Part shown: positions 7,914 to 34,899 of the stretch, piece by piece
How positions within the stretch are numbered: position 1 is the first letter of the stretch
Layout: the number at the start of each line of letters is the position of its first letter
NCBI GenBank assembly: GCA_012517545.1
Contig: JAAYUW010000105.1
Coordinates: 1 to 39,077 of the forward strand
Direction of reading: 5' to 3'
Source: Exilispira sp.
Lineage (GTDB): Bacteria; Spirochaetota; JAAYUW01
Length of the DNA stretch: 39,077 nucleotides
Notes under the pieces: model-generated
Seen by the model: the letters and a program-made list of their open reading frames with translations, nothing else
What the model was told of the DNA's origin: nothing
The model's database searches: none
Position numbers and translations under genes: made by a program

Positions 7914-7938
7914 CGGACTTTTGACTTCAGACTTTCGC
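7914..7938 (+). repeat. Intergenic heptad repeat, copy A
   Basis: Three to four 7-base units of the NGACTTT type, reading CGGACTTTTGACTTCAGACT and onward, followed by CTGTTATAA. The same units recur in seven other gaps of the window. Confidence 0.6.
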
Positions 7939-7999
7939 CTGTTATAAAAAACAAAGAACGAAAATCTATTGGGATTTTTCATCAAAAGATTTATAACAG
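7939..7999. repeat. Nested inverted repeat
   Basis: CTGTTATAAA (7939-7948) is perfectly complementary to TTTATAACAG (7990-7999). Inside it AAAATC (7961-7966) pairs with GATTTT (7973-7978). It lies 37 bases beyond the cheY stop and could fold in a 3' untranslated RNA; there is no U tract typical of a terminator. Confidence 0.5.
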
Positions 8000-8035
8000 A
8001 GAATCATAAAAAAAACAAGAGCCAAAGTGAATACG

Positions 8036-8401
8036 CTACTTTTCAATAGCCTTTTTTATAGCAGAAATAAGTCTATCTTCCTTAAAAGGTTTTACTATAA
8101 AGTCTTTGGCCCCAAGGCGAATAGCTGAAACAATAAGTTTCTGCTGACCTAAAGCCGAGCACATTACAACCTTAGCGTGAGGGTCAACAAGCATAAGCCT
8201 CTGTAAGGTTTCTATACCATTTAGTATAGGCATGGTTATATCAAGTAGAACAATAGTTGGTTTAATTTCATTGTATTTTTTTAATGCTTCAATACCATTA
8301 GCTGCTTCATAACACTCTGTAAAGCCATGTTTCATCAAGATATCTTTGATCATCATCCTGACAAAAGCTAAATCATCGACGATCAATATAGAAACACCCA
8401 T
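8036..8401 (-). CDS. cheY: CheY-like single-domain response regulator
   Basis: A 121-residue receiver domain with no output domain. The acidic pocket D9-D10, the phosphorylated aspartate D54 (LLDITMP), S82 (CSALGQ) and K104 (VKPF) are all present, so it should be phosphorylated by a histidine kinase such as CheA and act on the flagellar switch or a similar target. A start codon four residues upstream (8413) is possible, but GGTGG lies six bases before the ATG at 8401 and family proteins begin at this point, so I chose 8401. It follows prfB on the same strand by about 50 bases. No chemotaxis kinase or receptor gene is nearby. It could serve a non-chemotaxis partner. Confidence 0.88.
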   Translation of the reverse strand: MGVSILIVDDLAFVRMMIKDILMKHGFTECYEAANGIEALKKYNEIKPTIVLLDITMPILNGIETLQRLMLVDPHAKVVMCSALGQQKLIVSAIRLGAKDFIVKPFKEDRLISAIKKAIEK

Positions 8402-8449
8402 AAATTCCACCATTTAAACTTTATAAAAAAACTTTTTTTTTGTTAATTC

Positions 8450-9670
8450 TTAATAATTTATGTTATATTTTTTCTTAAAGTCAAGAGAAATCATAGCAAA
8501 AATAAAATCATCAATATCACCATCAAGAACTCTATCAGCAGATGAAGATTCATATTTCGATCTATGATCTTTTATTAATGTATAAGGCTGTAATGTATAT
8601 GAACGAATCTGATTTCCCCAGGAGATATCCTTTCTTTCAGCCATTATCTCTTCTTCTTTTTTCTTTTTCTCTTCAAGGTAATATTGGTACAACCTAGATT
8701 TAAGAACCTTCATAGCTGTTTCTTTATTCTGATGCTGGGATCTTTCATTCTGGCATACAACTGTTATTCTGGTTGGTAGATGAATTATTCTAACAGCAGA
8801 GTCAGTTTTATTTATATGCTGACCACCAGCACCTCCTGCTCTAAAAGTTTCAATCTTAATATCTGAAGGATTTATCTGAACATCGACTTCGTCTGAAAGT
8901 TCAGGAAATACATATACTGAAGCAAAAGAAGTATGCCTTCGAGCATTGCTATCGAAGGGAGAGATTCTTACCAGACGATGGATCCCTGTCTCATACTTCA
9001 AAAAACCATATGCATATTCGCCTTTGATATGCAGGGTAGCAACCTTTATCCCTCCACCTTCAACTGGAACTAATTCTAAAACCTCTACCTTAAAATTCTT
9101 CCTCTCTGCATATCTAATATACAACTTAAATAGCATCTGAGCCCAATCTGTAGATTCAAGGCCACCTGCACCAGGTTTTAAGGTCAAAAATGCATTTGAA
9201 TAATCAAGCTGATTAAATATATCGATATAAATAAGTTCTTTAAAAGAAGCTTCTATACTTTGATATAAAGCATAAATATCACTCACATCTTTAGTAGAAG
9301 AAGAGTTCGCCTGTTCGATAAAAGCCATAAGATCTTCGAAATCATTTGATATTTTTTTTAGAGAAGTGATTTTTTTTTCCAATCTATTAAGCAGAGATAA
9401 AACTTTCTTAGCATTGGCTTGATCAGACCAAAAAACTTCATCTTGAGTCTGAGAGTTTAGTTCTGCGATTTGCTCTTCCAGTTTATCTAAAGGAATGGAG
9501 TTCTGGATCTCTTTAAACTGTGCATACAACTGACTTGATAATTTTTTTAATGTAAAGTAATCAACCTGAGAGTTTGTTGAAGTATCATTTGGTTTATTGA
9601 TTTGTGAATTTAAATCTTCATCAAAATTTTCTTCAAAATATTCAAATGATTCCTGATTTTTTTCACTCAT
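8450..9670 (-). CDS. prfB: Peptide chain release factor 2 (RF2)
   Basis: A 406-residue class I release factor that recognises UGA and UAA stop codons on the ribosome and triggers peptide release. The codon-reading tripeptide SPF (237-239) marks it as RF2 rather than RF1, and the catalytic GGQ is at 282-284 in RAGGAGGQHINK. The protein is about 40 residues longer than usual RF2 because of an acidic, Asn/Ser-rich N-terminal extension before the normal start near residue 38. Unlike many prfB genes, the frame is continuous, with no internal UGA and no need for a programmed +1 frameshift. GGTG lies about ten bases before the ATG. It sits just upstream of cheY. Confidence 0.95.
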   Translation of the reverse strand: MSEKNQESFEYFEENFDEDLNSQINKPNDTSTNSQVDYFTLKKLSSQLYAQFKEIQNSIPLDKLEEQIAELNSQTQDEVFWSDQANAKKVLSLLNRLEKKITSLKKISNDFEDLMAFIEQANSSSTKDVSDIYALYQSIEASFKELIYIDIFNQLDYSNAFLTLKPGAGGLESTDWAQMLFKLYIRYAERKNFKVEVLELVPVEGGGIKVATLHIKGEYAYGFLKYETGIHRLVRISPFDSNARRHTSFASVYVFPELSDEVDVQINPSDIKIETFRAGGAGGQHINKTDSAVRIIHLPTRITVVCQNERSQHQNKETAMKVLKSRLYQYYLEEKKKKEEEIMAERKDISWGNQIRSYTLQPYTLIKDHRSKYESSSADRVLDGDIDDFIFAMISLDFKKKYNINY

Positions 9671-10389
9671 ACCTTTTTTTCACCTGATAAAAATATAATA
9701 ACTTGATATATATATAAATAAAGCATAGATCAACTATAAAATCTTGTTTTAATATTAAAAATACTAATTAATCGGAACTAATCGGAAAAAGCAAAAATTA
9801 TATGCTAATCTTGAAAACAAGATAAATAAAATAAGAAAAAGTTCAATAAAAAGATGCTACAGTTCATGGTTAAAAGTCTACAGTACTGGAATCATGCTAT
9901 TATCGATACCTTCTAAAGTCTAAAATCCGGAAATAATTTATTATCAATACTATCAAAAGCCAAAAGTCATAGAAAAATAAGCTCATCTGGCAAATGAGTA
10001 GCTTTTGATATTCGATTCTTTTCCAGGTCAGATCATAAAAAGAAAAGTAAAAAGCAAAAAATACTGGTTTTTCGCAAATTTTCTTTGTATAGCAAAGCCT
10101 TAAAAACTAACAAATAACTAAAATCAACAATCATCTTTGTTCATTATTGTTATTTGGATCCTTTATAAAATTGATATTTACTTTTATTGTTTTATTGTTA
10201 TAATCAATTTGCCTGTGAATTAAATATTAATAAAAAACTCCTTTATTTGCTTTTAAAAAGGATAAAATCCTTTTTTAGTCATTTAGATCTATATTTACGG
10301 CAAATTATGCTATATTCTTGCTCTTTTTTAGGTTAATAGCAATATTATTTCTTGCTATTTTTTTATTTTTAATTAAAGAAGAGAATTAT
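9671..10389. other. Long intergenic region with repeats
   Basis: About 720 bases between the divergent prfB and amidohydrolase genes. It holds three degenerate heptad-repeat blocks (9859-9972) and a small hairpin (CTCAT 9982-9986 with ATGAG 9994-9998). No supported gene is seen. Promoters for both flanking genes must lie here but none is clear enough to call. Confidence 0.6.
9859..9972 (-). repeat. Intergenic heptad repeat, copy B (three blocks)
   Basis: Three degenerate blocks of AAAGTCN units at 9859-9890, 9911-9936 (TAAAGTCTAAAATCCGGAAA) and 9943-9972 (ATCAATACTATCAAAAGCC and onward). The order of the blocks and the ATCAATAC spacer match copy E at 34232-34333. Confidence 0.6.
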
Positions 10390-11187
10390 ATGAAAGAAGT
10401 TAAAATTGCTCTTGTTCAATTCAAACCTAATCATTTAAATATTGAAAAGAATCTTGAAAGATCTTTTGATTTAATAGAGCAAAATCAAGGAGCAGACATA
10501 TATCTTTTCCCCGAGTTGTACTTAAGTGGCTATCTATTTACTTCCATAGAAGAAGTTAAAAAGGTAGCTCTAAGATCTGATAATATAGTTTTTGATACTA
10601 TCAAAAAATATACAAAAGACAAAAAAATTGCCATTATCGGTGGATATGCTGAAGATGAAAGTGGAAGATTTTTTAATTCTGCTTTTTTTATAGCCGAAGG
10701 CGAGTTTCTTCTCAACTATAGAAAGGTTCATCTTTTCAACGAAGAAAAATTATTTTTTTCTCCATCTTTCAATGGTTATAAAGTTACAAAGTATAGAGAC
10801 ATTAATTTTGGTATAATGATTTGTTTTGACTGGATCTTTCCTGAAGCTGCACGAACCTTAACTCTAAAGGGGGCTAATATCATTTTGCATCCCTCAAACC
10901 TTGTCTTGCCCTACTGCCAGGATGCAATGATAACAAGAGCTCTGGAAAATAGAGTCTTTATTGCCACCTGTAATAGAGTTGGAACTGAAAAAGTTGGTAA
11001 GAAAAAACTTGCATTTACAGGTAAATCTCAGATAGTTGATCCTTCCGGGAAAAGACTTATACAACTTCCATCTTCAAAAGAGACTGTTAAAATAGTTAAA
11101 ATTGATGCTTCCTTGAGTGAAAATAAAAATATTACCAACCTTAACAATCTACTTCAAGATAGAAGACCTGATCAGTATATTATGTAG
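10390..11187 (+). CDS. Nitrilase-superfamily carbon-nitrogen hydrolase
   Basis: A 265-residue cytoplasmic amidohydrolase of the nitrilase superfamily, which hydrolyses an amide or nitrile C-N bond through a Glu-Lys-Cys triad. The triad is visible: E42 (FPELYLSGY), K112 (YRKVHLF) and C145 (GIMICFDW). I chose the ATG at 10390 because family proteins begin here (MKEVKIALVQF) and GAAGAG lies just upstream; a longer frame from TTG at 10318 would add an implausible hydrophobic leader. It precedes tRNA-Leu by 15 bases. Substrate is not clear; the family includes omega-amidase, N-carbamoylputrescine amidase and others. Length is normal. Confidence 0.87.
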   Translation: MKEVKIALVQFKPNHLNIEKNLERSFDLIEQNQGADIYLFPELYLSGYLFTSIEEVKKVALRSDNIVFDTIKKYTKDKKIAIIGGYAEDESGRFFNSAFFIAEGEFLLNYRKVHLFNEEKLFFSPSFNGYKVTKYRDINFGIMICFDWIFPEAARTLTLKGANIILHPSNLVLPYCQDAMITRALENRVFIATCNRVGTEKVGKKKLAFTGKSQIVDPSGKRLIQLPSSKETVKIVKIDASLSENKNITNLNNLLQDRRPDQYIM

Positions 11188-11202
11188 ACTTCTATAATTT
11201 AT

Positions 11203-11284
11203 GTCGGAGTGGTGGAACTGGCAGACACGCTAGATTCAGGATCTAGTGAGGCAACTTGTAGGGGTTCAAATCCCCTCTCCGACA
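11203..11284 (+). tRNA. tRNA-Leu (anticodon CAG)
   Basis: A complete cloverleaf: the acceptor stem GTCGGAG pairs with CTCCGAC, the anticodon stem CTAGA/TCTAG encloses the loop TTCAGGA with anticodon CAG at 11237-11239, and the T arm is AGGGG-TTCAAAT-CCCCT. The variable arm (TGAGGCAACTTGT) is of the long class, as expected for leucine, though on the short side. The discriminator is A at 11284. The 3' CCA is not encoded and must be added by the CCA enzyme. A T-run follows directly. Confidence 0.96.
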
Positions 11285-11433
11285 CATTTTTTTACTAAAA
11301 TAAAAGATTTATTCAGAATATTTCCCATAATTTAATACAACTACAAGAAACAACTTGCTTTCAATATCGAGACACTCTTTATTAAAAAGCTTCTGCTAAA
11401 GTGATTCCCCGCATAATATTCTTTCGCTCTTAG

Positions 11434-11472
11434 CTGTTTATAACAGTCTAAAGTCTAAAGCCAGAAAATAAG
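11434..11472 (-). repeat. Intergenic heptad repeat, copy C1
   Basis: CTGTTTATAACAG (a small perfect hairpin, arms CTGTT/AACAG) runs into CAGTCTAAAGTCTAAAGCC. The join TTATAACAG plus AAAGTC units is the reverse complement of the arrangement in copy A. Confidence 0.6.
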
Positions 11473-11600
11473 AGAATATAGAGAAGAATAATGAACTATT
11501 TGCATAGCAAAGTTCAAAAATTTTATTTAATCTCATTCAATCTCTCCAGAAGTTTTATTAATATGACTTATAAAAAAACAAGGGATTGATAATATCAGTT

Positions 11601-11642
11601 AAGTTTATTCCCGGATTTTCAACTTTTGACTATTGACTGTTG
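11601..11642 (+). repeat. Intergenic heptad repeat, copy C2
   Basis: AAGTTTATTCCCGGATTTTC opens the block, followed by ACTTTTGACTATTGACTGTTG. The opening part is nearly identical to copy D at 23454-23480 and to the reverse complement of copy E. Confidence 0.65.
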
Positions 11643-11677
11643 TCCTATACTTAGCTTTAAAAAGCCTATTTAAGTAA

Positions 11678-11738
11678 ATAGTCAAAATCAAAAGTGATAA
11701 TTTTAAATCAAAAGTCTAAGGAAAAGTCTAAAGATAAG
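11678..11738 (-). repeat. Intergenic heptad repeat, copy C3
   Basis: Degenerate AAAGTCN units: ATAGTCAAAATCAAAAGTGA at 11678-11697, then two AAAAGTCTAAG-type units at 11709-11733. Confidence 0.5.
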
Positions 11739-11847
11739 AAACAGTATACAGATAGATTATCTTTCCATTAATAGAGAAATAATTTGATAAAAAAAATAAA
11801 GCAAATAAAATGAATAAAACTGATATGTAAATTAGCAGAGGATATAT

Positions 11848-12807
11848 ATGAGTAATTCTGGTAATAATATTCTTCAAAAAGTCTTTGATTCAATAGAAGG
11901 AAAAATAATTGGTCAAAAAGAGATAATACAAAAGATCTGCATAGCTTTGTTTGCTGGTGGACATATTTTACTGGAGGGAGTTCCAGGCACTGGTAAAACT
12001 TACATCCTAAAATCTTTAGCGTCGCTATTCAATTTAAGTTTCAAGCGGATCCAGTTTACTCCGGATCTTCTGCCTTCAGATATAACTGGAAGCATGATTT
12101 TTGATCCTAAAACTCTTACTTTTATACCTTTTAAAGGACCTGTATTTAACTCAATAATTCTGGCTGATGAGATTAATAGATCTCCTGCTAAAGTCCAATC
12201 AGCTTTACTACAGGCTATGCAAGAGTATGAAGTCAATCTTGGTGGAGAAAATTATCCTATTTCAAAACCTTTTTATGTTGTTGCTACTCAGAACCCTATC
12301 GAACATGAAGGTACTTATCCTCTACCTGAAGCACAACTGGACAGGTTTATGTTTAAACTTATAATATCATATCCAACCAAAGAGGATGAAGTAAAGATTT
12401 TAAGTAATATAAACCCAATAGAAAAAGATAAATTAGAACCTGCCTTTAATATAGATGAATTTTCTAATATTCAAAAGAATATAGATGAAATTTTTTTTGA
12501 TGATAGATTGATCAATTATATATGCGACCTGATTCAGGCAACGAGGAACCAGAAAAATTACGCCCTTGCTCATCTTGCAAATTATATCCAGTGGGGTGCC
12601 TCAACAAGAGCGAACATAGCTCTTTATAAAGCATCAAAGGTCAAAGCCTTCTTTGATGATAGAAAATTTGTTATACCTGAAGACGTACTCTATATATTGC
12701 ATGATGTCCTCAGGCATCGCATAATACTTTCATATGAAGCCATCGCAAGTGGAGTAACTGTAGAATCAATAATTTCTGAAATTGCGGATCATATACCAAT
12801 ACCCTGA
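11848..12807 (+). CDS. MoxR-family AAA+ ATPase
   Basis: A 319-residue AAA+ ATPase of the MoxR group, chaperone-like enzymes that act with von Willebrand factor A (VWA) proteins. The Walker A motif is GVPGTGKT (44-51), Walker B ends in D107-E108 (IILADEINRSP), and sensor 1 follows in ATQNPIEHEGTYPLPEAQLD, the family signature. GAGG lies seven bases before the ATG. It is the first gene of the Bat cluster, followed by DUF58 and two VWA proteins, the usual arrangement for MoxR genes. By analogy it should help assemble or activate the VWA proteins at the membrane, but a specific client is not shown by sequence. Confidence 0.94.
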   Translation: MSNSGNNILQKVFDSIEGKIIGQKEIIQKICIALFAGGHILLEGVPGTGKTYILKSLASLFNLSFKRIQFTPDLLPSDITGSMIFDPKTLTFIPFKGPVFNSIILADEINRSPAKVQSALLQAMQEYEVNLGGENYPISKPFYVVATQNPIEHEGTYPLPEAQLDRFMFKLIISYPTKEDEVKILSNINPIEKDKLEPAFNIDEFSNIQKNIDEIFFDDRLINYICDLIQATRNQKNYALAHLANYIQWGASTRANIALYKASKVKAFFDDRKFVIPEDVLYILHDVLRHRIILSYEAIASGVTVESIISEIADHIPIP

Positions 12808-13048
12808 TTTTATCGTATATATATTGATCAAAAAAAGTTACAAACTAAGCTTTTATATAGCAAACAGATATTTATACTGATTATTTTTAAAGTATTATTT
12901 AGATTATATAAAATTATTTTTATTTTCTGGAATTTAAGCTATCAATTCTAAACTTTAGATTATTGGACTTTAATTTATTAATTTTAATTTTTTTGCTTTT
13001 AATATTAATTCGAGAAAATAGAAAATAAATTAGAATAATGAAATGTAG

Positions 13049-13900
13049 ATGGGGAATATGAAAACCAAGCTTGCCGAAGATTTGTTTTTTAATCAACAAT
13101 TGCTTCAACTTTATATGATTTCTAATAAAACATTTATTGGAGATTATAAAACAGCTTTTAAAGGGATTGGGCTTGATTTTTATCAAAATAGACTTTATTC
13201 ACAGGATGATTCAATAAGACAAATAAATTGGTATCTCTTTGCAAAATTAAGAGAACTTTATGTTAAAGAATATATAGAAGACAGAAATAGATACAATGTC
13301 ATCTGTCTTGATATATCAAAATCGATGTTTATAAAAATAAAAAAGCCATATAAAATGGAACAGGCTCTAGGTGTTGCGCTACTCTTGCTTTATTCCTCTC
13401 TAAAAGTCGGTGATAACACATGCTTTTTACTATTCTCAGATGATGTTAAGTTATTTTTCCCATTTAAAAAAAATTTTAACACATTTTTTCAGATATTTAG
13501 TTGTTTAAAAAATTTGACTGTAGATTTAGAAGCTTCATTTGAATGTCATAAGATTTTTGAAAAACTTTTTAATATTTTAAAAAAAAGAGCACATATATTT
13601 TTGGTTTCTGATTTTATTTTCAGACTTGATGAAAAACTTTTACAATCTCTCACTCAAAAACATAGCTTGACTGCAATCACAATAATAGATGATGAGGAAC
13701 GAAGGATAGATTCACTTTTAAAAAATCGTTCTTCTTTCGAATATAGTTCACTTCTTAAACAGGAGACTTACTATGAAACATATTATAAAAATAGTTCAAT
13801 TCTGAAAAAGTATAACATAGATGTTGTTCCTATATCTTCAATAAATAATCCATTGTCTACACTTCAAAATTTTTTAAGATCAAAAAGGACAGTGAACTAA
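13049..13900 (+). CDS. DUF58 (VWA-like) protein of the Bat cluster
   Basis: A 283-residue protein of the DUF58 family, almost always encoded beside MoxR. The family core is plain: GDYKTAFKGIGLDFYQNRLY, then RQINWYLFAKLRELYVKEYIED, followed by the VWA-like metal site DISKSM. No signal peptide or membrane helix is seen, so it is probably cytoplasmic and could bring the ATPase to its clients. The start is uncertain: ATG 13049 has no good ribosome-binding site, while ATG 13058 three codons later is preceded by GGGG. A 241-base AT-rich gap separates it from MoxR. Coding DNA here is clearly more AT-rich than in the housekeeping genes of the window. Confidence 0.85.
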   Translation: MGNMKTKLAEDLFFNQQLLQLYMISNKTFIGDYKTAFKGIGLDFYQNRLYSQDDSIRQINWYLFAKLRELYVKEYIEDRNRYNVICLDISKSMFIKIKKPYKMEQALGVALLLLYSSLKVGDNTCFLLFSDDVKLFFPFKKNFNTFFQIFSCLKNLTVDLEASFECHKIFEKLFNILKKRAHIFLVSDFIFRLDEKLLQSLTQKHSLTAITIIDDEERRIDSLLKNRSSFEYSSLLKQETYYETYYKNSSILKKYNIDVVPISSINNPLSTLQNFLRSKRTVN

Positions 13901-14063
13901 ATAGCAAATAAGTTATAAGATTTAAAGAATTTTCAATCTATTGATTATATATTAACAATCCGGGATTCTCTTTTTTAAGAGTTGTAACATTTAAGGTTGA
14001 AATAGGATAATTGATACAAATGTTTGCAAATTAGAATATTAAAAAGTACCATGGTTGAGTAAT

Positions 14064-14885
14064 ATGAAAAAATTCTATATAATAACTTTATTTATTTTAT
14101 CTTTTTTTGTATTCACAAGCGCAAATATTGAGATTCAACCATCTAAAATTTACTGTGGAAGTAAATTTACTCTGTTAATAAATCTGACTGATTATGGAAT
14201 ATCCATCGCCGGTACATCAACGCCTTATTTGAAATCATATAACGAAAATATCAATATAATATCTTATCAATTTAAATATAGAAAAAACAAACTTTTTCTT
14301 TCGATCGAAATGCAAATTTTTTCAAATAATTCAATCAATTTATCTGATGTTTCGCTTATAGATGGAGATAATGTTTACACCTTTTCATCTATATCAATAC
14401 CAATCAAAAAATTGGAAAGCAATGTTTTTTCAATTCCAAAAGATAATTTTTTTCAAAAGAGACTCTATATCAATATTTTGATATCATTATTTCTAATAAC
14501 AATAATAATATTTTTTATTTTTTTTATTTTGAAATTTGCTATTGATAATATTAAATCAAAAAATAGATATAATATTTCTAAAAAAGCCTTTTATGGTAAA
14601 AAAGAAAATTTAGTAAGACTCATAAACAAAATAAGATTAGATATAAATGATTGCATAAATTTCAAAAAGGATATTTTAGTTTTTTTAGATGAATGGAATC
14701 TTTTCTTCACTGGCTTTCAAAACAGTTGCAAACTTGATGGGTTGCAGGAGGATGCACAGAGTATAAGAAATTTGATATATAGCTCTCCATCATTTCTATA
14801 TGATAATTTTAAGGATTTTATTGACTCGAAATTACTTGAAATTGAAAAAAAACTAAAAGATATTTACTATCAAAACTCTCAATAA
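14064..14885 (+). CDS. Anchored envelope protein of the Bat cluster (BatD-like, unnamed)
   Basis: A 273-residue protein with a signal peptide (about 1-20), an extracytoplasmic beta-rich domain of about 110 residues starting IEIQPSKIYCGSKFTLLINL, one strong membrane helix (about 135-158, many Ile and Phe) and a cytoplasmic helical tail of some 110 residues. The opening phrase resembles the start of BatD-type domains (an exported domain that begins just after the signal peptide). I recognise no catalytic motif. A TTG three codons upstream would keep the frame, but ATG 14064 begins a normal signal peptide. In many Bat clusters an uncharacterised anchored protein sits between DUF58 and BatA; this one occupies that position. 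Confidence 0.6.
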   Translation: MKKFYIITLFILSFFVFTSANIEIQPSKIYCGSKFTLLINLTDYGISIAGTSTPYLKSYNENINIISYQFKYRKNKLFLSIEMQIFSNNSINLSDVSLIDGDNVYTFSSISIPIKKLESNVFSIPKDNFFQKRLYINILISLFLITIIIFFIFFILKFAIDNIKSKNRYNISKKAFYGKKENLVRLINKIRLDINDCINFKKDILVFLDEWNLFFTGFQNSCKLDGLQEDAQSIRNLIYSSPSFLYDNFKDFIDSKLLEIEKKLKDIYYQNSQ

Positions 14886-14974
14886 ATGGCTCTCCTTTAT
14901 TTAGCTTTAAAATAATTAAACCTTAAGTAAAATCTTATTTCAGAAGAGTCATAAATTATTTAAAAAGAAGAAAA

Positions 14975-15952
14975 ATGAGATTTTCTTACCCTCTAAATTT
15001 TCTTTTACTTATTCCAGCTGCAGGCATTTTTTATTTGATTATAATCTTAAAAAGAGGAAAAACAGGTTTTCCTCTAAGTTCTATCCCTGTAAAACCAGAA
15101 AAATTAAACTATTTGATGTTTTTTAAGTATTTATTTTTATTTTTGGTTCTATTTTTATTGATAATAGGAAGCACATCTCCCATGGTTCCTATTTCTAAAG
15201 TTCCGATCGAAGAGAAAGGACATGCTTTTGTTTTCTGTCTTGATATCTCTTCAACGATGAAAGCACTTGATTTTGCACCTCAAGATAGATTTTTTAAAGC
15301 AAAAGAGACTATTAAAGAATTTATAGATAACAGAAAGATGAATTTTTATGGACTTGTGATCTTTGCAAAATATTCACTCCCGATAGTACCTCTCACTTTT
15401 GATAATAACTTTCTAATCCAAAAACTTGAATCTATTCAGATTGGAGATATAGAAGATGGCACAGCAATTGGAAATGCTATTATCAATGCTGTAGAACTTT
15501 TAAAGTACTTCAAAGGTGAATCAAAAAATATAATATTAATAACAGATGGAATCAACAATGATGGATACATTGATCCTATTTTCGCAGTGCAAGTAGCAAA
15601 AAATTATGGTATGAAGGTATACCCTATAGCTATTGGGTCAGATTCACCTGTGAATTTCCCTTTTGTTGATTCAAAAGGCCTTTCTTACACCAAGAAGATT
15701 AAAATTTCAGTGGATATTGCCCTATTAAGACAAATAGCACAAATAGGAGGCGATGGAAAAGTTTATACAGCTACAAATTCTAGAGAATTCGACAGTATCT
15801 TCAAAGAGATTGAAAAGCAAAATCCAATAGAACTAAATATCAAATCTTATATTACATACAAGTCCATAGATCATTTGTTTTATGTTTTGTCTGTATTGAC
15901 TTTTATCATTTTTCTTTTTCTTGAACTATTTTCTATAGAGGTTGAATATTAA
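14975..15952 (+). CDS. batA: BatA-like VWA membrane protein
   Basis: A 325-residue VWA protein with two N-terminal membrane helices (about 7-25 and 48-66) and one C-terminal helix (about 303-320), leaving the VWA domain between them. The metal-binding (MIDAS) site is complete: D90-x-S92-x-T94 (DISSTM), T163 (DGTAIG) and D191 (ITDGINNDG). This is the architecture of BatA/BatB (Bacteroides aerotolerance) proteins. It follows the anchored protein by 89 bases and overlaps the next VWA gene by one base (TAATG), so the two VWA proteins are translationally coupled and probably act as a pair. The name is based on architecture and order. Confidence 0.85.
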   Translation: MRFSYPLNFLLLIPAAGIFYLIIILKRGKTGFPLSSIPVKPEKLNYLMFFKYLFLFLVLFLLIIGSTSPMVPISKVPIEEKGHAFVFCLDISSTMKALDFAPQDRFFKAKETIKEFIDNRKMNFYGLVIFAKYSLPIVPLTFDNNFLIQKLESIQIGDIEDGTAIGNAIINAVELLKYFKGESKNIILITDGINNDGYIDPIFAVQVAKNYGMKVYPIAIGSDSPVNFPFVDSKGLSYTKKIKISVDIALLRQIAQIGGDGKVYTATNSREFDSIFKEIEKQNPIELNIKSYITYKSIDHLFYVLSVLTFIIFLFLELFSIEVEY

Positions 15953-16992: not shown

Positions 16993-17040
16993 TTGGTATA
17001 TATAACTTAATGCGAAATTACTTCAAAAGACAGGAAAAAA

Positions 17041-20040: not shown

Positions 20041-20134
20041 AGACTTATGATGTATGATTACAGAAAAATATAATATTAAATAAATTCTTAAATTTCTCTT
20101 TAAAGAAAGAAAAAGTTTTCTTTTAATAGTTCTT

Positions 20135-23358: not shown

Positions 23359-23418
23359 AATTTTTCACTCTTTGAGCAATTTTTACGGGCACTGAATATA
23401 ACCTTCTAAAGATCATCT

Positions 23419-23484
23419 TCCCTGACTTTTAACCTTAAACTGTTTTGTAGTCAAGTTATTCCCGGACTTTAGACTTTCGACTAT
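23419..23484 (+). repeat. Intergenic heptad repeat, copy D
   Basis: Two blocks: TTCCCTGACTTTTAACCTTA at 23419-23438, then TTATTCCCGGACTTTAGACT at 23457-23476 ending TTTCGACTATTA. In reverse complement the spacer GGGAATAACTTGAC matches that of copy E (GGGAATAAACTTGAC). Confidence 0.65.
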
Positions 23485-23650
23485 TATATTTACTATTATT
23501 AATTTCGTGAAAATTCTAAAACAATTGAGGTTCTTTTTTATAGATTATCTAAATCTACATAAAAAAGATTGCATAATTCTGGCCCAATTCTTGAAAATAA
23601 GCTGCATTACTTTAATTTAGCGAATCTATCCTTTGTCATTTAGAATAAAG

Positions 23651-23671
23651 AAAAATAGGCTCTTAGCCTAT
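23651..23671 (-). terminator. Rho-independent terminator of the cell-shape operon
   Basis: ATAGGCT (23655-23661) pairs perfectly with AGCCTAT (23665-23671) across a three-base loop. On the minus strand the hairpin is followed by TTTTTCTTTATT. It lies about 125 bases beyond the methyltransferase gene. Confidence 0.75.
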
Positions 23672-23796
23672 AAATATTGTTATGTAATGAAAAATATTGA
23701 CATTTCGCTTCTTTTTACGGCTTAACCATATAAACTATTTGGAAAAGGAGAAATATTAGTCACACAAAAAGGCAAAGAAAGTAAAAATATGCTAAA

Positions 23797-24774: not shown

Positions 24775-24791
24775 TCATTTATCTTATTTCC

Positions 24792-27413: not shown

Positions 27414-28729
27414 ACCGATGAATATCTTTTCATTGAAATATTAAGAACAAGCATATATGCAAATATAGAGGTCAATAAACTTGAACCCCCGGAAGAAAGA
27501 AAAGGCAAGGGAACTCCAGTTATGGGCATAAGCCCTATAGTCATACCAATATTTAAGATGGATTGATTAAAAAAATAACCAAAAATCCCTGCAAGAACCA
27601 TTTTATTGTAAAAAGAAGACGTGATTCTGATTAAAGTCAGTATTTTTACAAAAATAGTACCATAAATTATTAATATTAAAAATGAAAGGATAAATCCTCC
27701 TTCCTCACCTATTATAGAAAATATGAAGTCTGTGCTTCTTTCAGGAAGAAAACCAAACTGACTTTGAGTACCTCTAAAAAGACCTTTACCAAATAATCCC
27801 CCTGCACCTATTGCAATTTTACTTTGTATTATATTATAGCCAGATCCTAATTTATCAAGTTCAGGATTGATAAAAACTAATAATCTTTTTTTCTGATAAT
27901 CAGCGAGTATTTTATCGGCTAAAATACTAAGAACTATTGAAATACCTATACCTATTAGAATAAATGAAATTCTCATGACAGTTTTAGACTCAACCTGGGT
28001 GGAAATGAGAAGTATTATAACTCCAACAATTGTCATTAGAGCACTAATTATCAGAAAGTATTTATTTGAAAAAACAAGGTTCTTAATGAAAACTGTGGTA
28101 TCAATAAGCTTTAAATATACCCTTAATAGTGGTAAAGAAAAAACAAATACACCCATAATCACAGTTAATATTAAAAGTTCAATGTTTAAATTTGCTAGAA
28201 ATGCAATTGTTAAAAAAATCAAAACCAGAATAAAAGTTGAACCAAAATCTGGTTGTAAAAGTATCAAAATAGCTGGTAAAGCTGTAACAAGTCCAACAAT
28301 GATAAAAAATTTAACTGAACTTCTATATTTCTCATCATTTTGATATAAGGTAATTATTTTGGCAACAAAAAGAATATAAAAGAGTTTCATAAACTCAGAT
28401 GGTTGAATGCTAAAAAAACCAAATTTGATCCAGCTTTTTGAACCTCTAACCCTTGTTCCTATAAGTAATGTTGCAATTAACATCAATATTCCAAATAAGT
28501 ATAAAAACTCAGATATATCCTGAATTTTTTTTATATCGATAAGAAGTACAAATATTCCTCCAAGTATCCCAACAGAAGCATAAATTATCTGCATCAAATA
28601 CCTTGTTTTTAATGATGGAATATTTTTTGTTCCTGAGTATATGAATAAAACAGAAATAACAAGCAGTATTAAAAGTATAGCAAATAATAGATAATCTATA
28701 TGTGCAATATTTAGCTTCTTTTCCTTCAT
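27410..28729 (-). CDS. rodA: RodA (SEDS peptidoglycan glycosyltransferase)
   Basis: A 439-residue SEDS-family membrane protein that polymerises lipid II during cell elongation together with PBP2. Family motifs are plain: the segment KFGFFSIQPSEFMKLFYIL, QPDFGST at 159-165, and the large loop GSGYNIIQSKIAIGAGGLFG followed by FLPERSTDFIF with the essential aspartate D334. The C-terminal GVPLPFLSSGGSS is also typical. The protein is about 60 residues longer than usual RodA because of an insertion at about 212-265 that seems to add two membrane helices before the NPELD loop. It lies 47 bases after mrdA. Confidence 0.95.
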   Translation of the reverse strand: MKEKKLNIAHIDYLLFAILLILLVISVLFIYSGTKNIPSLKTRYLMQIIYASVGILGGIFVLLIDIKKIQDISEFLYLFGILMLIATLLIGTRVRGSKSWIKFGFFSIQPSEFMKLFYILFVAKIITLYQNDEKYRSSVKFFIIVGLVTALPAILILLQPDFGSTFILVLIFLTIAFLANLNIELLILTVIMGVFVFSLPLLRVYLKLIDTTVFIKNLVFSNKYFLIISALMTIVGVIILLISTQVESKTVMRISFILIGIGISIVLSILADKILADYQKKRLLVFINPELDKLGSGYNIIQSKIAIGAGGLFGKGLFRGTQSQFGFLPERSTDFIFSIIGEEGGFILSFLILIIYGTIFVKILTLIRITSSFYNKMVLAGIFGYFFNQSILNIGMTIGLMPITGVPLPFLSSGGSSLLTSIFAYMLVLNISMKRYSSV

Positions 28730-28776
28730 TCTTTTTTACCCATTAAATATCACTTCATTTTCAAATTATTCATATA

Positions 28777-30597
28777 TTACTCTTCATCATGAGGAGATAA
28801 ACCCTTAGAAATCAGTTTGAGATACTTTTTATACCAGGCTTGCTGTATGTCAGCCTTTGCTTTTTCCATACTTTTATTTCCATAGTACATATCAAAAAGA
28901 ACAGATGCAATAGGAGCTGCGATCGAGGCTCCATAACCAGAATTTTCAACCATAACAGTTATGACAAGTTCTGGATCATCATATGGACCAAAAGCTGTAA
29001 ACCAGGCGTGTGTATTACCAAATGTCTGTGCAGTTCCTGTTTTCCCGGCTATTTCAACTTCAGCAGTTGTTCCGCCATATCTTGCTGTTCCTTCATCAAC
29101 AACTTTTTTCATGGCCTGTTTTATTACTTTCCAGACCCATTCACCAATACTAACCTTATTTAGTACTTTTGGAGCCAGTTGAAGCACTGTCTTACCCTTG
29201 TTTATATCAACTATCTCATCTACAATATGTGGGACATAATTTGTCCCTTCATTTGCTATAAGCATAGTAGCAAGATTCATTTGAAGTGGAGTTACCAGTA
29301 AGTAACCCTGCCCTATTGCAAGATTTAATGTGTCTCCATCAAACCATGGTTCATTATACTTGTTTATTTTCCACTCATTTGATGGTATAAAACCCTTTGC
29401 TTCACCTGGTAAATCTATACCAGAAAGATTACCAAATCCAAGAATTCTTGAATATTGGTTTATAGTAGAGATAGAAGTTTTTAATGCAAGATTATAAAAG
29501 AAAATGTTACAGGATTCGACTATAGCTTTCTCAATATTAATAGTCCCATGTCTGCCAAGACATTTAAACTCTCTATCCCCAAGTTGAAATGTGTGATTAC
29601 AGTAAAACTTTGTATTTGTGTCTATCACTTTACTATCCAGACCAATAACTGACATAAATATCTTAAATGTAGAGGCAGGCGGATATTCAGCAGCTATAGG
29701 TCTGCAAAGAAATGGATTGTCAGGATTATTGTTTATTTGACTGAATTGTTCTGAACTCATACCTTTTATAAAAAGGTTTGGATCTATAGACGGCGATGAA
29801 GCGAGAACCAGAATCTCTCCTGTCTTTGCATTCGAAACTATAACTGAACCTCTATACCCCTTTAACATATCATAGGCTGCTTGCTGTAAGCGCGAATCTA
29901 TTGATAATTTAAGCGAAAGACCATTTTCAGGTTCATCTATAACATTATTTTCGATAACTTCACCCAGCGCATTTGTCCTTATTGCCATTTTTCCTTTTTT
30001 GCCTTTGAGATACTCATCATATTGTTTTTCTAAACCCAGCTTTCCAAGTAAATCATTAGGCTTATAGCCTTTTTTAGAAAGAAATATAAGTTCTGTTGGT
30101 GTTATTTGCCCCAAATAACCAATAAGATGAAACATAGAATCACTATAAGGGTAGTACCTGTATGACAAATCCTCAAATCTAATATCAGGATATAAAAAAT
30201 TCTGTTCATACAACTTTGCTATCTGTTTTTCATCGTAAGTTTGTGCTAGAAATATCCTTTCACCTCTTGAAACAGTTTGATACTTTTGCTTTATATCATC
30301 AATATTAAATGAAATAATATTATTGATTGTAGCTAATTGATCTTCAACCTCTGAAACATCTTTTTTTGTTTTAACAAAATATATTTTCCATACTGGCTTA
30401 TTTGAAGCAAGTATATCGTTATTTCTATCTATTATCAAACCTCTCAAAGGCTCAATAGGCTGATACATCTCAACATTTCGGATAGAACTAATCAAATAAT
30501 TGTAATTTGAAATTATCTGAAGATTAAAAAGCCTGGCAGAAAAAACAAAAAGAACAAAAATAGATAGTATTATCAAAAAGGTTATTTTATTTTCCAT
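28777..30597 (-). CDS. mrdA: Penicillin-binding protein 2 (peptidoglycan transpeptidase)
   Basis: A 606-residue class B PBP that cross-links peptidoglycan during elongation as the partner of RodA. An N-terminal membrane helix (about 5-27) is followed by the pedestal domain (PLRGLIIDRNN at 50-60) and the transpeptidase domain with its three motifs: S309-T-F-K312, S362-C-N364 and K519-T-G-T522. The YCNHTFQLGDREFKCLGRHG insertion is typical of non-proteobacterial PBP2. It overlaps mreD by 11 bases and is followed by rodA, the common mreBCD-mrdA-rodA order. The start ATG has normal N-terminal context. Confidence 0.96.
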   Translation of the reverse strand: MENKITFLIILSIFVLFVFSARLFNLQIISNYNYLISSIRNVEMYQPIEPLRGLIIDRNNDILASNKPVWKIYFVKTKKDVSEVEDQLATINNIISFNIDDIKQKYQTVSRGERIFLAQTYDEKQIAKLYEQNFLYPDIRFEDLSYRYYPYSDSMFHLIGYLGQITPTELIFLSKKGYKPNDLLGKLGLEKQYDEYLKGKKGKMAIRTNALGEVIENNVIDEPENGLSLKLSIDSRLQQAAYDMLKGYRGSVIVSNAKTGEILVLASSPSIDPNLFIKGMSSEQFSQINNNPDNPFLCRPIAAEYPPASTFKIFMSVIGLDSKVIDTNTKFYCNHTFQLGDREFKCLGRHGTINIEKAIVESCNIFFYNLALKTSISTINQYSRILGFGNLSGIDLPGEAKGFIPSNEWKINKYNEPWFDGDTLNLAIGQGYLLVTPLQMNLATMLIANEGTNYVPHIVDEIVDINKGKTVLQLAPKVLNKVSIGEWVWKVIKQAMKKVVDEGTARYGGTTAEVEIAGKTGTAQTFGNTHAWFTAFGPYDDPELVITVMVENSGYGASIAAPIASVLFDMYYGNKSMEKAKADIQQAWYKKYLKLISKGLSPHDEE

Positions 30598-31108
30598 ACA
30601 TCTTTTTAGAATTTAATTCGATAATCGGTTTTATATATATAATCATAGAAAGAAATGGTACCCAGAACAAAGTATATAAAATATGTATAGCATATGATAA
30701 CAGTGTCGATTTATATATTACAAAGACCTCTTTGAAGATATAACCAAAGAGATAATAAATAAATAGTTTTATCAGAAGACTCAATAAAACTAAAAAAAGG
30801 TAAAATGGCAAGGTCTTAATATTTAAGTAGTTTTTAAAGTTATAAAGAAGTGCCACTACAATACAATAGAAAAAGGCATTCAATCCTGCCAGATTACCAG
30901 AATAAACATCTATTACAAAGCCTGTAATAAAGGCAAATATAAGCATCTCAAAATCGTCACAGATCTGAAAAAGCAAAATTATCAAAACAAGCATAATATC
31001 TGGCATAACATTTTTGATGGCCAGAAAGTTATTTGTAAAGATAGATAATTGAATGAACAAACAAATGGAACCAATTATAAAATAAAATAAAATTCTTTTA
31101 AAAAGCAT
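30587..31108 (-). CDS. mreD: Rod-shape determining protein MreD
   Basis: A 173-residue integral membrane protein with about five hydrophobic helices. The MreD signature is seen in MPDIMLVLIILLF and GFVIDVYSGNLAGLNAFFY (about 62-80). MreD helps link MreC and the PBP2-RodA complex to MreB filaments. It sits between mreC (13-base gap) and mrdA (11-base overlap). Length is usual. MreD is poorly conserved in general, so position adds to the support. Confidence 0.9.
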   Translation of the reverse strand: MLFKRILFYFIIGSICLFIQLSIFTNNFLAIKNVMPDIMLVLIILLFQICDDFEMLIFAFITGFVIDVYSGNLAGLNAFFYCIVVALLYNFKNYLNIKTLPFYLFLVLLSLLIKLFIYYLFGYIFKEVFVIYKSTLLSYAIHILYTLFWVPFLSMIIYIKPIIELNSKKMYGK

Positions 31109-31121
31109 TTTCTTTCTCTTT

Positions 31122-31988
31122 TTATTGAGATATGCTGGATTCAGTATAATCTTCAGTTATTTCATAATTCAAAATAACAAATACATATTGAATTTTAGAA
31201 AAATCGATAAGTGGTTTTAAAGTAATCTTTTGATATAGACTAAAATTCTGTTTCTGAACATCAACTACTTTCCCCACAAGTATTCCTGGCGGGAAAATAC
31301 CACCAAAGCCAGCAGTTATAAAAATATCGTTAAAAAATATATCGGCTTCATTTGGGAAATATTCCACCTGCAAAAGATTACTTGTTGGAGCATCTCCTCT
31401 TGCTATTCCAGAATAGTTGCTATACAACTCTTTAACCGAGATAGATGATCTTGCATCAAAAACAGTCATTACTTTTGAATAAAAAAAATTGACCTCAATT
31501 ACCTTCCCTACAATTATTTTTTCACCATCCTGGATCGCATAAACAGCTAAACCTTTTTTAATATTATCATTTGAACCTCGATTTATAGTAATAACTGAAT
31601 ATAGATTGGTAGGATCCTTAAGTATTATTTGAGCTGGTAAGACATCATAAGGAGCTTCTTCTTTTAAATTTAGCATCTGCTTGAGTTCTTTATTTTCTCT
31701 TTCTAAAAGTTCAAGTTTAAATTTTGCTTCTTTCAACTGCTTGAGCTCTTCATTAAGCCTTACATTTTCCTGCTTTAAAAGATTCAACTCTTTTAATGAA
31801 GAAAAAAATGTTAAGGTATTTTGTACGACAAAAGTGTACGCCTTAACAAAAGGGTAAGAAATAGCTCCAAATATGACTTTAGGAGTTAAAATAAAACTTG
31901 AGGTGGTAAAAAACATACTTATAATGGAAATGACAATAAAAATAATAAAAAAAATAGTAAATTTGTTCTTTAAAAAATATTGGTTCAT
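31122..31988 (-). CDS. mreC: Rod-shape determining protein MreC
   Basis: A 288-residue protein with one N-terminal membrane helix (about 11-29), a coiled coil (about 66-108, LKELNLLKQENVRLNEELKQ) and a periplasmic two-barrel domain beginning LPAQIILKDPTNLYSVITIN. MreC is a dimeric scaffold that activates PBP2. The ending with FGGIFPPGILVGKVVDV is typical of the second barrel. A 177-base AT-rich gap without a clear hairpin separates it from mreB; an internal promoter there is possible. Confidence 0.95.
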   Translation of the reverse strand: MNQYFLKNKFTIFFIIFIVISIISMFFTTSSFILTPKVIFGAISYPFVKAYTFVVQNTLTFFSSLKELNLLKQENVRLNEELKQLKEAKFKLELLERENKELKQMLNLKEEAPYDVLPAQIILKDPTNLYSVITINRGSNDNIKKGLAVYAIQDGEKIIVGKVIEVNFFYSKVMTVFDARSSISVKELYSNYSGIARGDAPTSNLLQVEYFPNEADIFFNDIFITAGFGGIFPPGILVGKVVDVQKQNFSLYQKITLKPLIDFSKIQYVFVILNYEITEDYTESSISQ

Positions 31989-32165
31989 AAAAATATCAGT
32001 TCTTCACCTTTATAAAAATAAAAAATAACATAGTTAATGAAAAAAATTATTGGTTCTTTTTTATTTAGATTTTCAAACAATATTTAAAATATATTTCATA
32101 ATAACGGTAAAATTAAAATTATTTATATTAAATAAAAATCACTTAAAATTAAAAATAAATTCTAA

Positions 32166-33182
32166 CTAAATTGTCTTATATATTTTATTTTTATCAAGAG
32201 ATTCAAGAAACCTGGCGGTTCCCATAACTATAGCTGTCAATGGGTTTTCAGCAAGAAAAACTGGAACCTTAGTTTCTTCTGATATCAGTTTATCAAAACC
32301 TCTAAGCAATGAACCTCCTCCCGCAAGAACTATGCCTCTATCTACTATATCACCTGCAAGTTCAGGGGGTGTTTGATCCAGTGTCTTTTTAATCTCCTCA
32401 ACAATCTGGTATAAAGGCTCTTTTATGGCTTCCCTAATCTGATCGGAATCTATCAATAAGGTTTGAGGTAATCCTTTTATAGCATCTCTACCTTTTATTT
32501 CAAATGAAAGTTTTTCATCTCCATGAAATGCACTACCAACTTTTATCTTAATCTCCTCAGCTGTATTCTCACCTACAACAAGGTTGTGCTTCTTTTTCAG
32601 GTAGTTTATAATGGCCTGATCTATCTCATCGCCAGCGACCCTTATAGCATTTGTAACAACCATGCCCCCAAGAGAAATAACAGAAATCTCGGTAGTTCCT
32701 CCTCCAATATCAACTATCATATGCCCTGCAGGCTCATCTATCGGGATATTTGCACCAATGGCTGCTGCAAGAGATTCTGGTATAAGATGTATATCTCGAG
32801 CTCCAGCCTGTTCGATAGACTCTCTAACTGCTTTTTTCTCAACTTCAGTAATACAGGTTGGAACACCAACAACTACTCTTGGTTTTACAAGAGTTGATCT
32901 ACCTATAGCCTTCTTTATAAAATCTCTTATCAATCTATTCATAACATCAAAGTCTGCTATCACTCCATCTCTCATTGGTCTTATGGCCTGGATGGCTCTT
33001 GGTGTTCTTCCAAGCATCTGTTTAGCTTCGTTACCAATAGCCATTATTTTATTTGTTCCTGTCTCAACAGCCACTACAGTAGGCTCATTGACGACGATTC
33101 CTTTTCCTTTAACATAGATCAAAGTATTAACGGTTCCAAGATCAATGCCGACATCACAAGAAAAAACATCGGTTAAACCCAT
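32166..33182 (-). CDS. mreB: Actin-like rod-shape protein MreB
   Basis: A 338-residue bacterial actin that forms membrane-associated filaments and directs lateral cell-wall synthesis. The ATP-binding motifs are clear: phosphate 1 [11 protein letters not shown] (10-20), phosphate 2 DIGGGTTEI (158-166) and the adenosine motif [14 protein letters not shown] near the C-terminus. Length matches the family. It is 12 bases after the TPR gene and has AGGAG a few bases before its ATG. GC content is clearly higher than in the Bat cluster, as expected for a highly expressed conserved gene. Confidence 0.97.
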
Positions 33183-33194
33183 CTAGATCTCCTT

Positions 33195-34112
33195 TTATTG
33201 CAAAGCTTTTAATAGATTTTTTGCCAGTATATTTTCTTTATTTATAAGTAAAGCCTTCGTAAGGTAATTTATTGAGGTATCAATATCATGCAAACAACTG
33301 AAACAATATCCAAGGTAATAGTATGACATATCTGAGTTTGGTGCCAGATCCACACATTGAAGTAAAATCTCAATGGCTTTATTAAATTGTTCAAGTTCTA
33401 TATATATCTTCCCCTGCAAGAACAAAGCATCTTTTCTTAAATCAAGATCTGTTGCGTTGGTTGAAATTCTCTGCAAGAAAGTAAGCGCTTCATTTTTTTT
33501 ATCAGCATTTTTTAAAACTATTGAGTAATAGTATAAAAACCTATAATCATTTTGATACTTATTGTAAATTTTACTCATAGCTTTTTGTGCAGATGCAAAA
33601 TCTTCAACTTCCGTATACATTATGCTAAGTTTGTAAAGTAATTCATCTTCTGGTATTAAATATTTTCGATTTGTTGCTTTCATATATTTTTCAAAAAAGA
33701 CCAATGAGTAAGGATAATATTTTTTGCCTAATTTGTAATAATTATCACCTATATAAAAGTAAATGTTTGAAGGGACATTAGCGTTATTATAATAAAAATA
33801 AGCTGTTCGGAAGTATAAAAGTGAATTCAGGTAATCACTTTGATAATAGTATATTAAACCAACTTTATAGTAATACCACCAGTTGATGTTTTCACCAGAT
33901 TTTATCCTGTCTTCAAGTATTTTAAGAGCTTTATCGTATTCTCTTCTTTCGATAAGATTATCAATATATCTAGTTGATGCTCCTTTTTTAAGCGTAAAAT
34001 TTTTAGAAAAAAAAAGCAAAAAAATGACAACTAATAGGATAAGTACAATAAAAAGAAAAATAAAAATATTACTCTTTCTTTTAGGTTTCTGTCTATAAGA
34101 TGTATAATACAT
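33195..34112 (-). CDS. Membrane-anchored TPR protein leading the mre operon
   Basis: A 305-residue protein with a short basic N-terminus, one membrane helix (about 16-35) and six or more tetratricopeptide-like repeats over about 45-305, the last ones being the most regular (AIEILLQCVDLAPNSDMSYYYLGYCF). It lies 12 bases upstream of mreB and is presumably made with it; a scaffold role for the elongation complex is plausible but is inference only. AGGTAG precedes the ATG. Its immediate upstream sequence contains a copy of the flgB start region and a 25-codon ORF. Confidence 0.8.
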   Translation of the reverse strand: MYYTSYRQKPKRKSNIFIFLFIVLILLVVIFLLFFSKNFTLKKGASTRYIDNLIERREYDKALKILEDRIKSGENINWWYYYKVGLIYYYQSDYLNSLLYFRTAYFYYNNANVPSNIYFYIGDNYYKLGKKYYPYSLVFFEKYMKATNRKYLIPEDELLYKLSIMYTEVEDFASAQKAMSKIYNKYQNDYRFLYYYSIVLKNADKKNEALTFLQRISTNATDLDLRKDALFLQGKIYIELEQFNKAIEILLQCVDLAPNSDMSYYYLGYCFSCLHDIDTSINYLTKALLINKENILAKNLLKALQ

Positions 34113-34115
34113 AAG

Positions 34116-34193
34116 CTACCTGACGCTCAAATACCAATTTAATGTAGAAATAGAATATAAAAAGTCAATCTTTTTAATGCCAAAATCCAGCAT
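34116..34193 (-). CDS. Possible 25-codon leader ORF copied from the flgB start
   Basis: ATG at 34193 is preceded by GAGG with a spacing of seven bases. The first six codons (MLDFGI) are the same as in flgB; the rest is unrelated (KKIDFLYSISTLNW and on). It stops three bases before the TPR-gene ATG, so ribosomes ending here could restart on the TPR gene. It may equally be an unused relic of the duplication. The length gives no statistical support, only the shared start and spacing do. Confidence 0.35.
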   Translation of the reverse strand: MLDFGIKKIDFLYSISTLNWYLSVR

Positions 34194-34248
34194 TTTTTTG
34201 CCTCATTCAAAATTTTTAGTCGTAATCGATGCAATAGTCGAAAGTCCA
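34181..34248 (-). repeat. Duplicate of the flgB leader, copy 1 (upstream of the TPR-mre operon)
   Basis: On the plus strand CAAAATCCAGCATTTTTTTG and the following bases to about 34248 match 34809-34895 with small gaps: first six codons, GAGGC ribosome-binding site, the ATTTTTA block, then CAATAGTCGAAAGTCC against CAACAGTCAAAAGTTC. Confidence 0.65.
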
Positions 34249-34333
34249 AAGTCCGGAAAAAAGACTTTTATCAATACAGTCGAAAGTCCGGGAATAAACT
34301 TGACGACACTACAGTCAAAAGTCACGAAAAAAG
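34232..34333 (-). repeat. Intergenic heptad repeat, copy E (three blocks)
   Basis: Best copy of the family. Block 1 (34232-34263) has AGTCGAAAGTCCAAAGTCCG; block 2 (34270-34304) has CAGTCGAAAGTCCGGGAATA then AACTTGAC; block 3 (34308-34333) has CAGTCAAAAGTCACG. Blocks 1 and 2 are separated by a spacer ending in ATCAATA, also present in copy B. Confidence 0.7.
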
Positions 34334-34391
34334 AAAAAATAGAGATAAAGAAAATTGAAAATAGGTATTAACTTTGAATGAAAAATGAATT

Positions 34392-34820
34392 TTATCTTAA
34401 CACAAGGTTAACAAGGTTGTAATCCTGTTTTAATAGATCAAGCATTGCTGAATATACGAGAGTAGTTTTAGATAGATCTGTATTTTCTCTATCTATGTCA
34501 ACATTATTGCCATCATTTCTTATTGAGCTTGCATAATCCAGAACTCTTTTAGGAGTGACAGAATCCCATGGAATCGGAATCTCAAATGGTATATGCTTTT
34601 CATTTGTAATGCGAGCATCAAGTTTTTCATCACTATTTTCCGAGGCAAGCGCTCTTTTAAGCTGCGCCTCAAAAGTCACCGAAGATCTCTTGAATCCGGG
34701 TGTTTCTGAGTTAGCAATATTGTTTGCTATAGTTGAATATCTAAAATTTTGAGCCTCTATTCCTTTCTTCAAAAGTTCAAAGGTTTTATGTGAAAAATTA
34801 TTTATTCCAAAATCCAGCAT
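34392..34820 (-). CDS. flgB: Flagellar basal-body rod protein FlgB
   Basis: A 142-residue proximal rod protein of the flagellum. The N-terminal rod signature IANNIANSETPGFKR (31-45) and the C-terminal helix ending LVYSAMLDLLKQDYNLVNLV fit the family. It is exported by the flagellar type III system, so it has no signal peptide. GAGG lies six bases before the ATG, and a promoter candidate is at 34900-34928. The usual partners flgC and fliE are not downstream; instead there is a repeat-rich gap and the mre operon. FlgB is intact, so the rod genes must lie elsewhere in the genome. Confidence 0.92.
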   Translation of the reverse strand: MLDFGINNFSHKTFELLKKGIEAQNFRYSTIANNIANSETPGFKRSSVTFEAQLKRALASENSDEKLDARITNEKHIPFEIPIPWDSVTPKRVLDYASSIRNDGNNVDIDRENTDLSKTTLVYSAMLDLLKQDYNLVNLVLR

Positions 34821-34895
34821 TTTTTGCCTCGTTTAAGATTTTTAATAACAATCCAGAATACATTCCAAAGTACAACAGTCAAAAGTTCGAGAACA
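34809..34895 (-). repeat. Duplicated leader of flgB, copy 2, with a heptad remnant (copy F)
   Basis: CAAAATCCAGCATTTTTTGC at its left end and CAACAGTCAAAAGTTCGAGA (34873-34892) at its right end match copy 1 in the same order and orientation. The 34873-34892 part is a worn heptad unit. Confidence 0.6.
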
Positions 34896-34899
34896 GGAA

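Follow-up and report, generated by a model that had tools for sequence, protein, structure and literature searches.

Short tandem arrays of heptanucleotides have been described from several bacterial groups. Geobacter metallireducens carries 49 elements with four GGGACCG/GGACCGG heptads, along with a further class whose elements contain five MTYCTGA heptads (PMC2700814). TAACTGA repeats occur in marine Beggiatoaceae, some Cyanobacteria and Bacteroidetes, with 169 sets of 2-6 heptads in BOGUAY, and in some Bacteroidetes relatives the gaps are shorter and the TAACTGA repeats are missing (PMC4679880). In Xanthomonas, ~185 arrays of GGGAATC are found on both strands, ~90% of them intergenic, and the Nostoc unit is GGGGA(T/C)T (PMC4692102). 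The cyanobacterial short tandemly repeated repetitive (STRR) sequences are represented, as cited in PMC4692102, by three heptanucleotides of Calothrix PCC 7601. Slippage was suggested by Mrazek and colleagues, as related in PMC4679880 and PMC4692102, ~7 nt being in contact with the polymerase. Here we describe a family of AAAGTCN heptads (NGACTTT on the other strand) in a 39,077 nucleotide stretch of Exilispira sp. (contig JAAYUW010000105.1, assembly GCA_012517545.1), the whole of which is referred to as the window. A first-pass annotation, made from the letters alone, had reported eight non-coding places sharing heptad blocks in both orientations, likened them in type to the cyanobacterial elements and stated that no described counterpart was known. 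The last statement does not hold, given the heptads published in all of the taxa above (PMC2700814, PMC4692102, PMC4679880). The heptad-repeat kind is already established; what is new here is the sequence, the host and the compound unit.

Extent and distribution of the repeat family

In the window, 23 matches to AAAGTCNAAAGTC were found with up to two mismatches, compared with 7.2 +/- 2.6 in shuffled sequences. None of 100 shuffles reached 23, and nearly all of the matches sit in the eight listed places. The analysed genome (2.36 Mb in 197 contigs, a draft ~94% complete, with ~6% missing) contains 64 exact AAAGTCNAAAGTC pairs, 32 per strand, against one match to the reversed-pattern control; the genome scan proposed in the first-pass annotation thus returned a large excess. 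The spacer CGGGAATAAACTTGAC (up to two mismatches) was found 23 times genome-wide versus 0 in the control; for the head edge GACTTTNGACTGTTATA the figures are 124 and 3. A profile was built from 41 copies across the genome, including the stronger window copies, whose own matches are therefore partly by construction. With it, 137 or more matches in the analysed genome reached E<=0.01, a floor because 150 candidates were scored in that search. In 11 contigs chosen regardless of the repeat, 124 kb in all, 10 copies were present, equivalent to ~190 per genome by extrapolation. The heptad family in the window and in the genome is confirmed as real and far above chance, and its description as dispersed, non-coding heptads of the cyanobacterial STRR type in two orientations is upheld.

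Three relatives were compared, two of the same genus (G001 and G002) and one of the same order (G003). In the profile search, G001 gave a single marginal match, and G002 and G003 gave none. When 393 genomes of the phylum were searched for AAAGTCNAAAGTCCGGGAA with two mismatches, 88 matches came from the analysed genome and 0-3, the control level, from each of the others, so that only the analysed genome stands above background. Both the profile and the phylum pattern scans therefore show a sporadic, lineage-specific distribution. Gene order in the window is the same in G001 and G002, which argues that the window is not foreign DNA. There are, in short, well over 100 worn copies in one species, of which one genome was examined, and none in its closest sequenced relatives, whose median protein identity to it is ~60%. 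A scan of all GTDB genome contigs with the 15-base AAAGTCCGGGAATAA was rejected as too short, the matches shown being scattered over unrelated taxa; among these loci, three heptad-like hexamers were found nearby in just 2/80 and a run in 0/80. One match to AAAGTCNAAAGTCCGGGAA on a viral contig was likewise discarded as chance, since it lies in a GC-rich, coding-looking stretch with no more heptads.

A compound unit in a seven-base register

Side-by-side reading and alignment of the copies reveal a unit of ~55-60 bp, ACAGTC-(NAAAGTC)1-3-CGGGAAWAAA-(CTTGACRAYACT or GACTTTTATCAAT)-ACAGTC-NAAAGT, which is a single alignable sequence with two central variants. The tandem units are exactly 7 bp long and occur in runs of 2-4. 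The first hexamer of the run is ACAGTC in 23/66 runs, whilst later hexamers are always AAAGTC, which indicates that the copies share a fixed order. The end of the unit often continues as ...AC-AACAGTC, the start of the next unit, and tandem pairs of units are common. Around the AAAGTCCGGGAA anchor, information content is limited to the ~14 bp that precede it and the ~40 bp that follow. When same-strand distances of up to 90 bp between A[AC]AGTC hexamers were counted, 179/274 were divisible by 7, and peaks occurred at 7, 14, 28, 35, 42 and 70 bp. The 7-bp register thus persists through the spacers to ~70 bp, and the spacers belong to the same seven-base chain. The common flanks and spacers of the first-pass annotation are parts of one longer unit in this register rather than separate flanks.

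The profile was run unfiltered over the window, and the E values given here come from that run. Its eight best matches fall on seven of the eight places, the remaining place, 11678-11738, being doubtful; the five best (E below 1e-7) lie in four places, and the rest of the window gave no match as good as any of the eight. The full copy at 23419-23488 (minus strand, ATAGTCGAAAGTCTAAAGTCCGGGAATAACTTGACTACAAAACAGTTTAAGGTTAAAAGTC) has the CTTGAC central variant (23424-23482, E=9e-16) and lies in a gap of 438 bp, compared with 36 and 80 bp in the relatives. Two tandem units, one per central variant, make up 34232-34333 (plus strand; 34236-34287, E=1e-15, and 34288-34327, E=3e-9), where the AGTC blocks have direct-repeat spacings of 35 and 35 bp (5x7). 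The copy at 9859-9972 (plus strand) has the central variant TTATTATCAATACTATC (9912-9968, E=6e-12) and is preceded by a degraded partial unit (weak match at 9869-9892, E 0.87). It occupies the gap from prfB to a carbon-nitrogen hydrolase gene, which measures 719 bp versus 119 and 137 bp in the same-genus relatives. At 11596-11642 (minus strand) the copy ACAGTCAATAGTCAAAAGTTGAAAATCCGGGAATAAACTTAAC (11598-11631, E=6e-8) includes a spacer match with one mismatch.

The other places are weaker. A short copy, ATAACAGTCTAAAGTCTAAAGCCAGAAAATAA, follows a tRNA-Leu gene at 11434-11472 (plus strand; 11445-11472, E=6e-4), and an exact head motif is located at 11439-11455 on the opposite strand. Degraded copies are found at 34873-34923 (plus strand, ACAACAGTCAAAAGTTCGAGAACAGGAAT; 34877-34923, E=3e-4), upstream of a flgB-like gene, and at 7902-7938 (minus strand; 7902-7931, E=4e-3), between genes for a PEGA protein and a response regulator. 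The latter has three heptads of the AAAGTCTGAAGTCAAAAGTC type and a head motif GACTTTCGCCTGTTATA at 7930-7946 with one mismatch. The weakest of the eight places, 11678-11738 (plus strand), contains possible decayed heptads only, which need two mismatches (11705-11725, E=0.47).

Other repeats were observed in the same DNA. Positions 34171-34218 and 34798-34845 are ~80% identical over 48 bp (score 58 versus <=26 in shuffles), the flgB-like gene having its 5' end and the DNA upstream of it repeated on its downstream side. Each duplicate directly precedes a heptad copy, and local duplication may have carried the copy along. TTTGTATAGCAAAG / TTTGCATAGCAAAG, at 10084-10097 and 11499-11512, may represent a third kind of small repeat in these gaps. 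Also dispersed is a second repeat, CCCATAYTTAGTTRCGAAGAGCC, which has 11 copies in the analysed genome (G000), at sites that include C82:3038, C100:1315 and C177:4787 (L284-L286), and none in the three relatives or in the reversed control; related inverted pieces, GGCTCTTCGC, look terminator-like. A tandem array of the 8-bp unit AAATAGYT with at least 10 exact copies is present on contig C171 of the same genome (L184:6238-6323), and most of the 8-bp periodicity that was detected comes from this one array. Intergenic repeats confined to this lineage seem to be abundant in the analysed genome as a whole.

Genomic setting and origin of the copies

Placement was assessed for 73 copies in ~0.49 Mb of the genome, sampled mainly around matches to the heptad pattern. 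Counted inside and outside genes, as the first-pass annotation had advised, 72/73 mapped copies lie outside open reading frames (ORFs), which cover ~3/4 of this DNA, as do 62/64 exact heptad pairs. Its observation that no block falls in a recognised gene also stands, no window copy being located in an ORF of at least 100 aa. In gaps between tandem genes, 19 copies follow the gene direction and 15 oppose it, a second count giving 14 versus 13. Median distances are 50-66 bp to stops versus 119-124 bp to starts, and the per-gap count of 18 stop-nearer to 9 start-nearer is not significant. Gaps between convergent genes hold 13/64 placed copies.

Nine syntenic gaps contain a copy, and all are longer in the analysed genome than in the relatives (for example 719 vs 128, 660 vs 158 and 438 vs 58 bp). 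Over the relatives, gaps with a copy (n=9) have a median excess of 272 bp and gaps without (n=30) one of 0 (Mann-Whitney p=0.0002), the gaps being ORF-based with a start-codon uncertainty that is equal for both groups. The non-coding share is also higher than in G001 and G002, ORFs making up ~74% of the sampled DNA, a repeat-biased sample, versus 86% in the same-genus stretches. The 41 profile copies share a mean pairwise identity of 62%, are 62-85% identical to their consensus and have nearest neighbours at no more than 85%. Therefore, there are no young copies and there was no recent burst.

The family is probably a lineage-specific dispersed non-coding repeat, with a ~55-60 bp unit of diverged 7-bp steps, decayed and present in more than 100 copies. 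To judge from the 7-bp register, a short seed would have grown through replication slippage, in increments of 7 bp, into the compound unit, which may then have reached its many intergenic sites, in either orientation, through copying by a probably recombinational route. Spread would have followed the split from the sequenced same-genus relatives, presence and absence themselves being seen in these genomes. The copies would since have decayed by point mutation under little or no selection, surviving where no gene was broken, and the intergenic placement, the lack of orientation bias and the old divergence all support this last step. Most likely, we infer, the copies have no sequence-specific job and mainly lengthen the intergenic DNA. 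They may also act as a recombination substrate.

Several results weigh against this account. From the register and the invariant order it is clear that units were copied whole. Slippage alone, acting at individual sites, leaves this unexplained, and no dispersal machinery was found in searches for a Y1 transposase and a reverse transcriptase. Copies explain only 25-190 bp of the median excess of 272 bp, and no 7-bp (lag-7) periodicity was detected in the intergenic DNA outside them. Given this missing signal, the extra intergenic DNA cannot all derive from decayed heptads; the remaining length is not of that kind, and another factor must also lengthen the gaps. Moreover, conservation is uneven, the AAAGTC and CGGGAA cores being well kept, and weak selection on binding sites could give the same pattern.

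These conserved cores, together with the intergenic location and similar published proposals (by MacGregor for TAACTGA, PMC4679880, and for the Geobacter heptads, PMC2700814), favour a species-specific regulator that binds DNA or RNA at the copies, with an affinity tuned by heptad number. We regard such a role as unlikely, because orientation is unbiased, copies lie farther from starts than from stops and occur in convergent gaps as well, many are strongly decayed, and same-genus relatives with the same ordered genes have none. An effect on transcription had been proposed in the first-pass annotation from the TTGACT hexamers, which resemble a -35 element. These are indeed enriched (0.52 per copy versus 0.04 in the control, per 120 bp, reverse strand), and the head edge is common. 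However, -35/-10 pairs at 15-19 bp (at least 10/12 matches) occur in 10% and 7% of copies versus 11% of control intergenic DNA, and there is no bias in orientation or towards starts. The promoter reading is not supported, and a role as promoter or transcription-start elements is highly improbable. Scarcely more can be said for a structured small RNA, terminator or untranslated region element: 34225-34335 folds moderately well (z -2.1 and -2.8), but shuffled sequences fold just as well as the remaining window copies, and the conserved folding raised in the first-pass annotation did not emerge, RNAalifold predicting no pair in 41 copies. A tRNA was the sole Rfam match, with no family for the copies, and the unbiased orientation again argues against this explanation.

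A non-autonomous mobile element, similar to a miniature inverted-repeat transposable element (MITE) or a REPIN and moved by a transposase in trans, would account for whole units at many sites in both orientations that are missing from the orthologous gaps of relatives; its transposase could have been lost or could lie in the missing part of the draft. It is nevertheless an improbable explanation. There is no palindromic core or conserved fold, no consensus pairs being found across the 41 copies, and no inverted arms or terminal inverted repeats in 23.3-23.6 and 34.1-35.05 kb, the two stretches scanned apart. Flank (target-site) duplications are at chance level, 12% versus 17% in random intergenic controls, in a test weakened by fuzzy copy boundaries. 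A Y1 transposase (RAYT, PF01797) was not found in the draft, whilst control genomes gave matches, nor was a reverse transcriptase; transposase families besides Y1 were not searched. Near-identical copies are also missing. By the features tested, the family is not a REPIN or a MITE. Some pairs of copy neighbourhoods have 40-150 bp in common beyond the copies themselves, mostly owing to second copies or other repeat families, and were rejected as evidence that copies carry flanking DNA. A rather remote alternative is an active process with a 7-nt step (synthesis by stepping or from a template, or a protein that reads the sequence) that writes or spreads the unit. Such a process would fit a chain of unlike heptads held in register over 70 bp and placed across the genome with neither a transposase nor a reverse transcriptase and with no inverted repeats or target duplication. 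A decayed, lineage-specific dispersed repeat is the reading that we carry forward.

Comparison with known heptad systems

Heptad repeats are sporadic across bacteria, and both their origin and their spread are unexplained. The Exilispira family adds a lineage in which we found no heptads described, an AT-rich host and a register that runs through non-identical steps. Since same-genus genomes have the same gene order but no repeats, the gain becomes datable and the shorter gaps can be read directly. The question of heptad origin and dispersal is thereby made testable as a clean before and after comparison. The family is not in itself evidence of a new function.

As far as the cyanobacterial STRR are summarised in the source cited at the outset, they too are dispersed intergenic tandem heptads. 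Their units differ from AAAGTC, and their hosts belong to another phylum. The family shares with REP/REPIN sequences a short length, an extragenic position and hundreds of copies (PMC3116915). However, those are defined by a palindromic core and a Y1 transposase (PMC3116915), neither of which was found for the Exilispira family.

The G. metallireducens elements are likewise dispersed, many-copy, short tandem heptad runs with no known function (PMC2700814). Their unit is GC-rich and appears unrelated to AAAGTC by eye, they also occur inside genes and they have fewer copies (PMC2700814); the Exilispira family has two unit types and a 7-bp register that extends beyond the run. The TAACTGA repeats are similar in being intergenic and strain-specific, with shorter gaps in some relatives that lack them (PMC4679880). 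They differ in their unit and in being pure heptads without the CGGGAA...CTTGAC middle, and in one genome they lie just before start codons (PMC4679880), a placement not seen for the Exilispira family. GGGAATC and GGGGA(T/C)T form G-quadruplexes and reach 26 units (PMC4692102), whereas AAAGTC cannot form them and is limited to 1-4 units. Nevertheless, the Xanthomonas and Exilispira repeats both lie nearer to the upstream ORF, at 28 versus 160 nt in Xanthomonas (PMC4692102) and at 50-66 versus 119-124 bp in the family described here.

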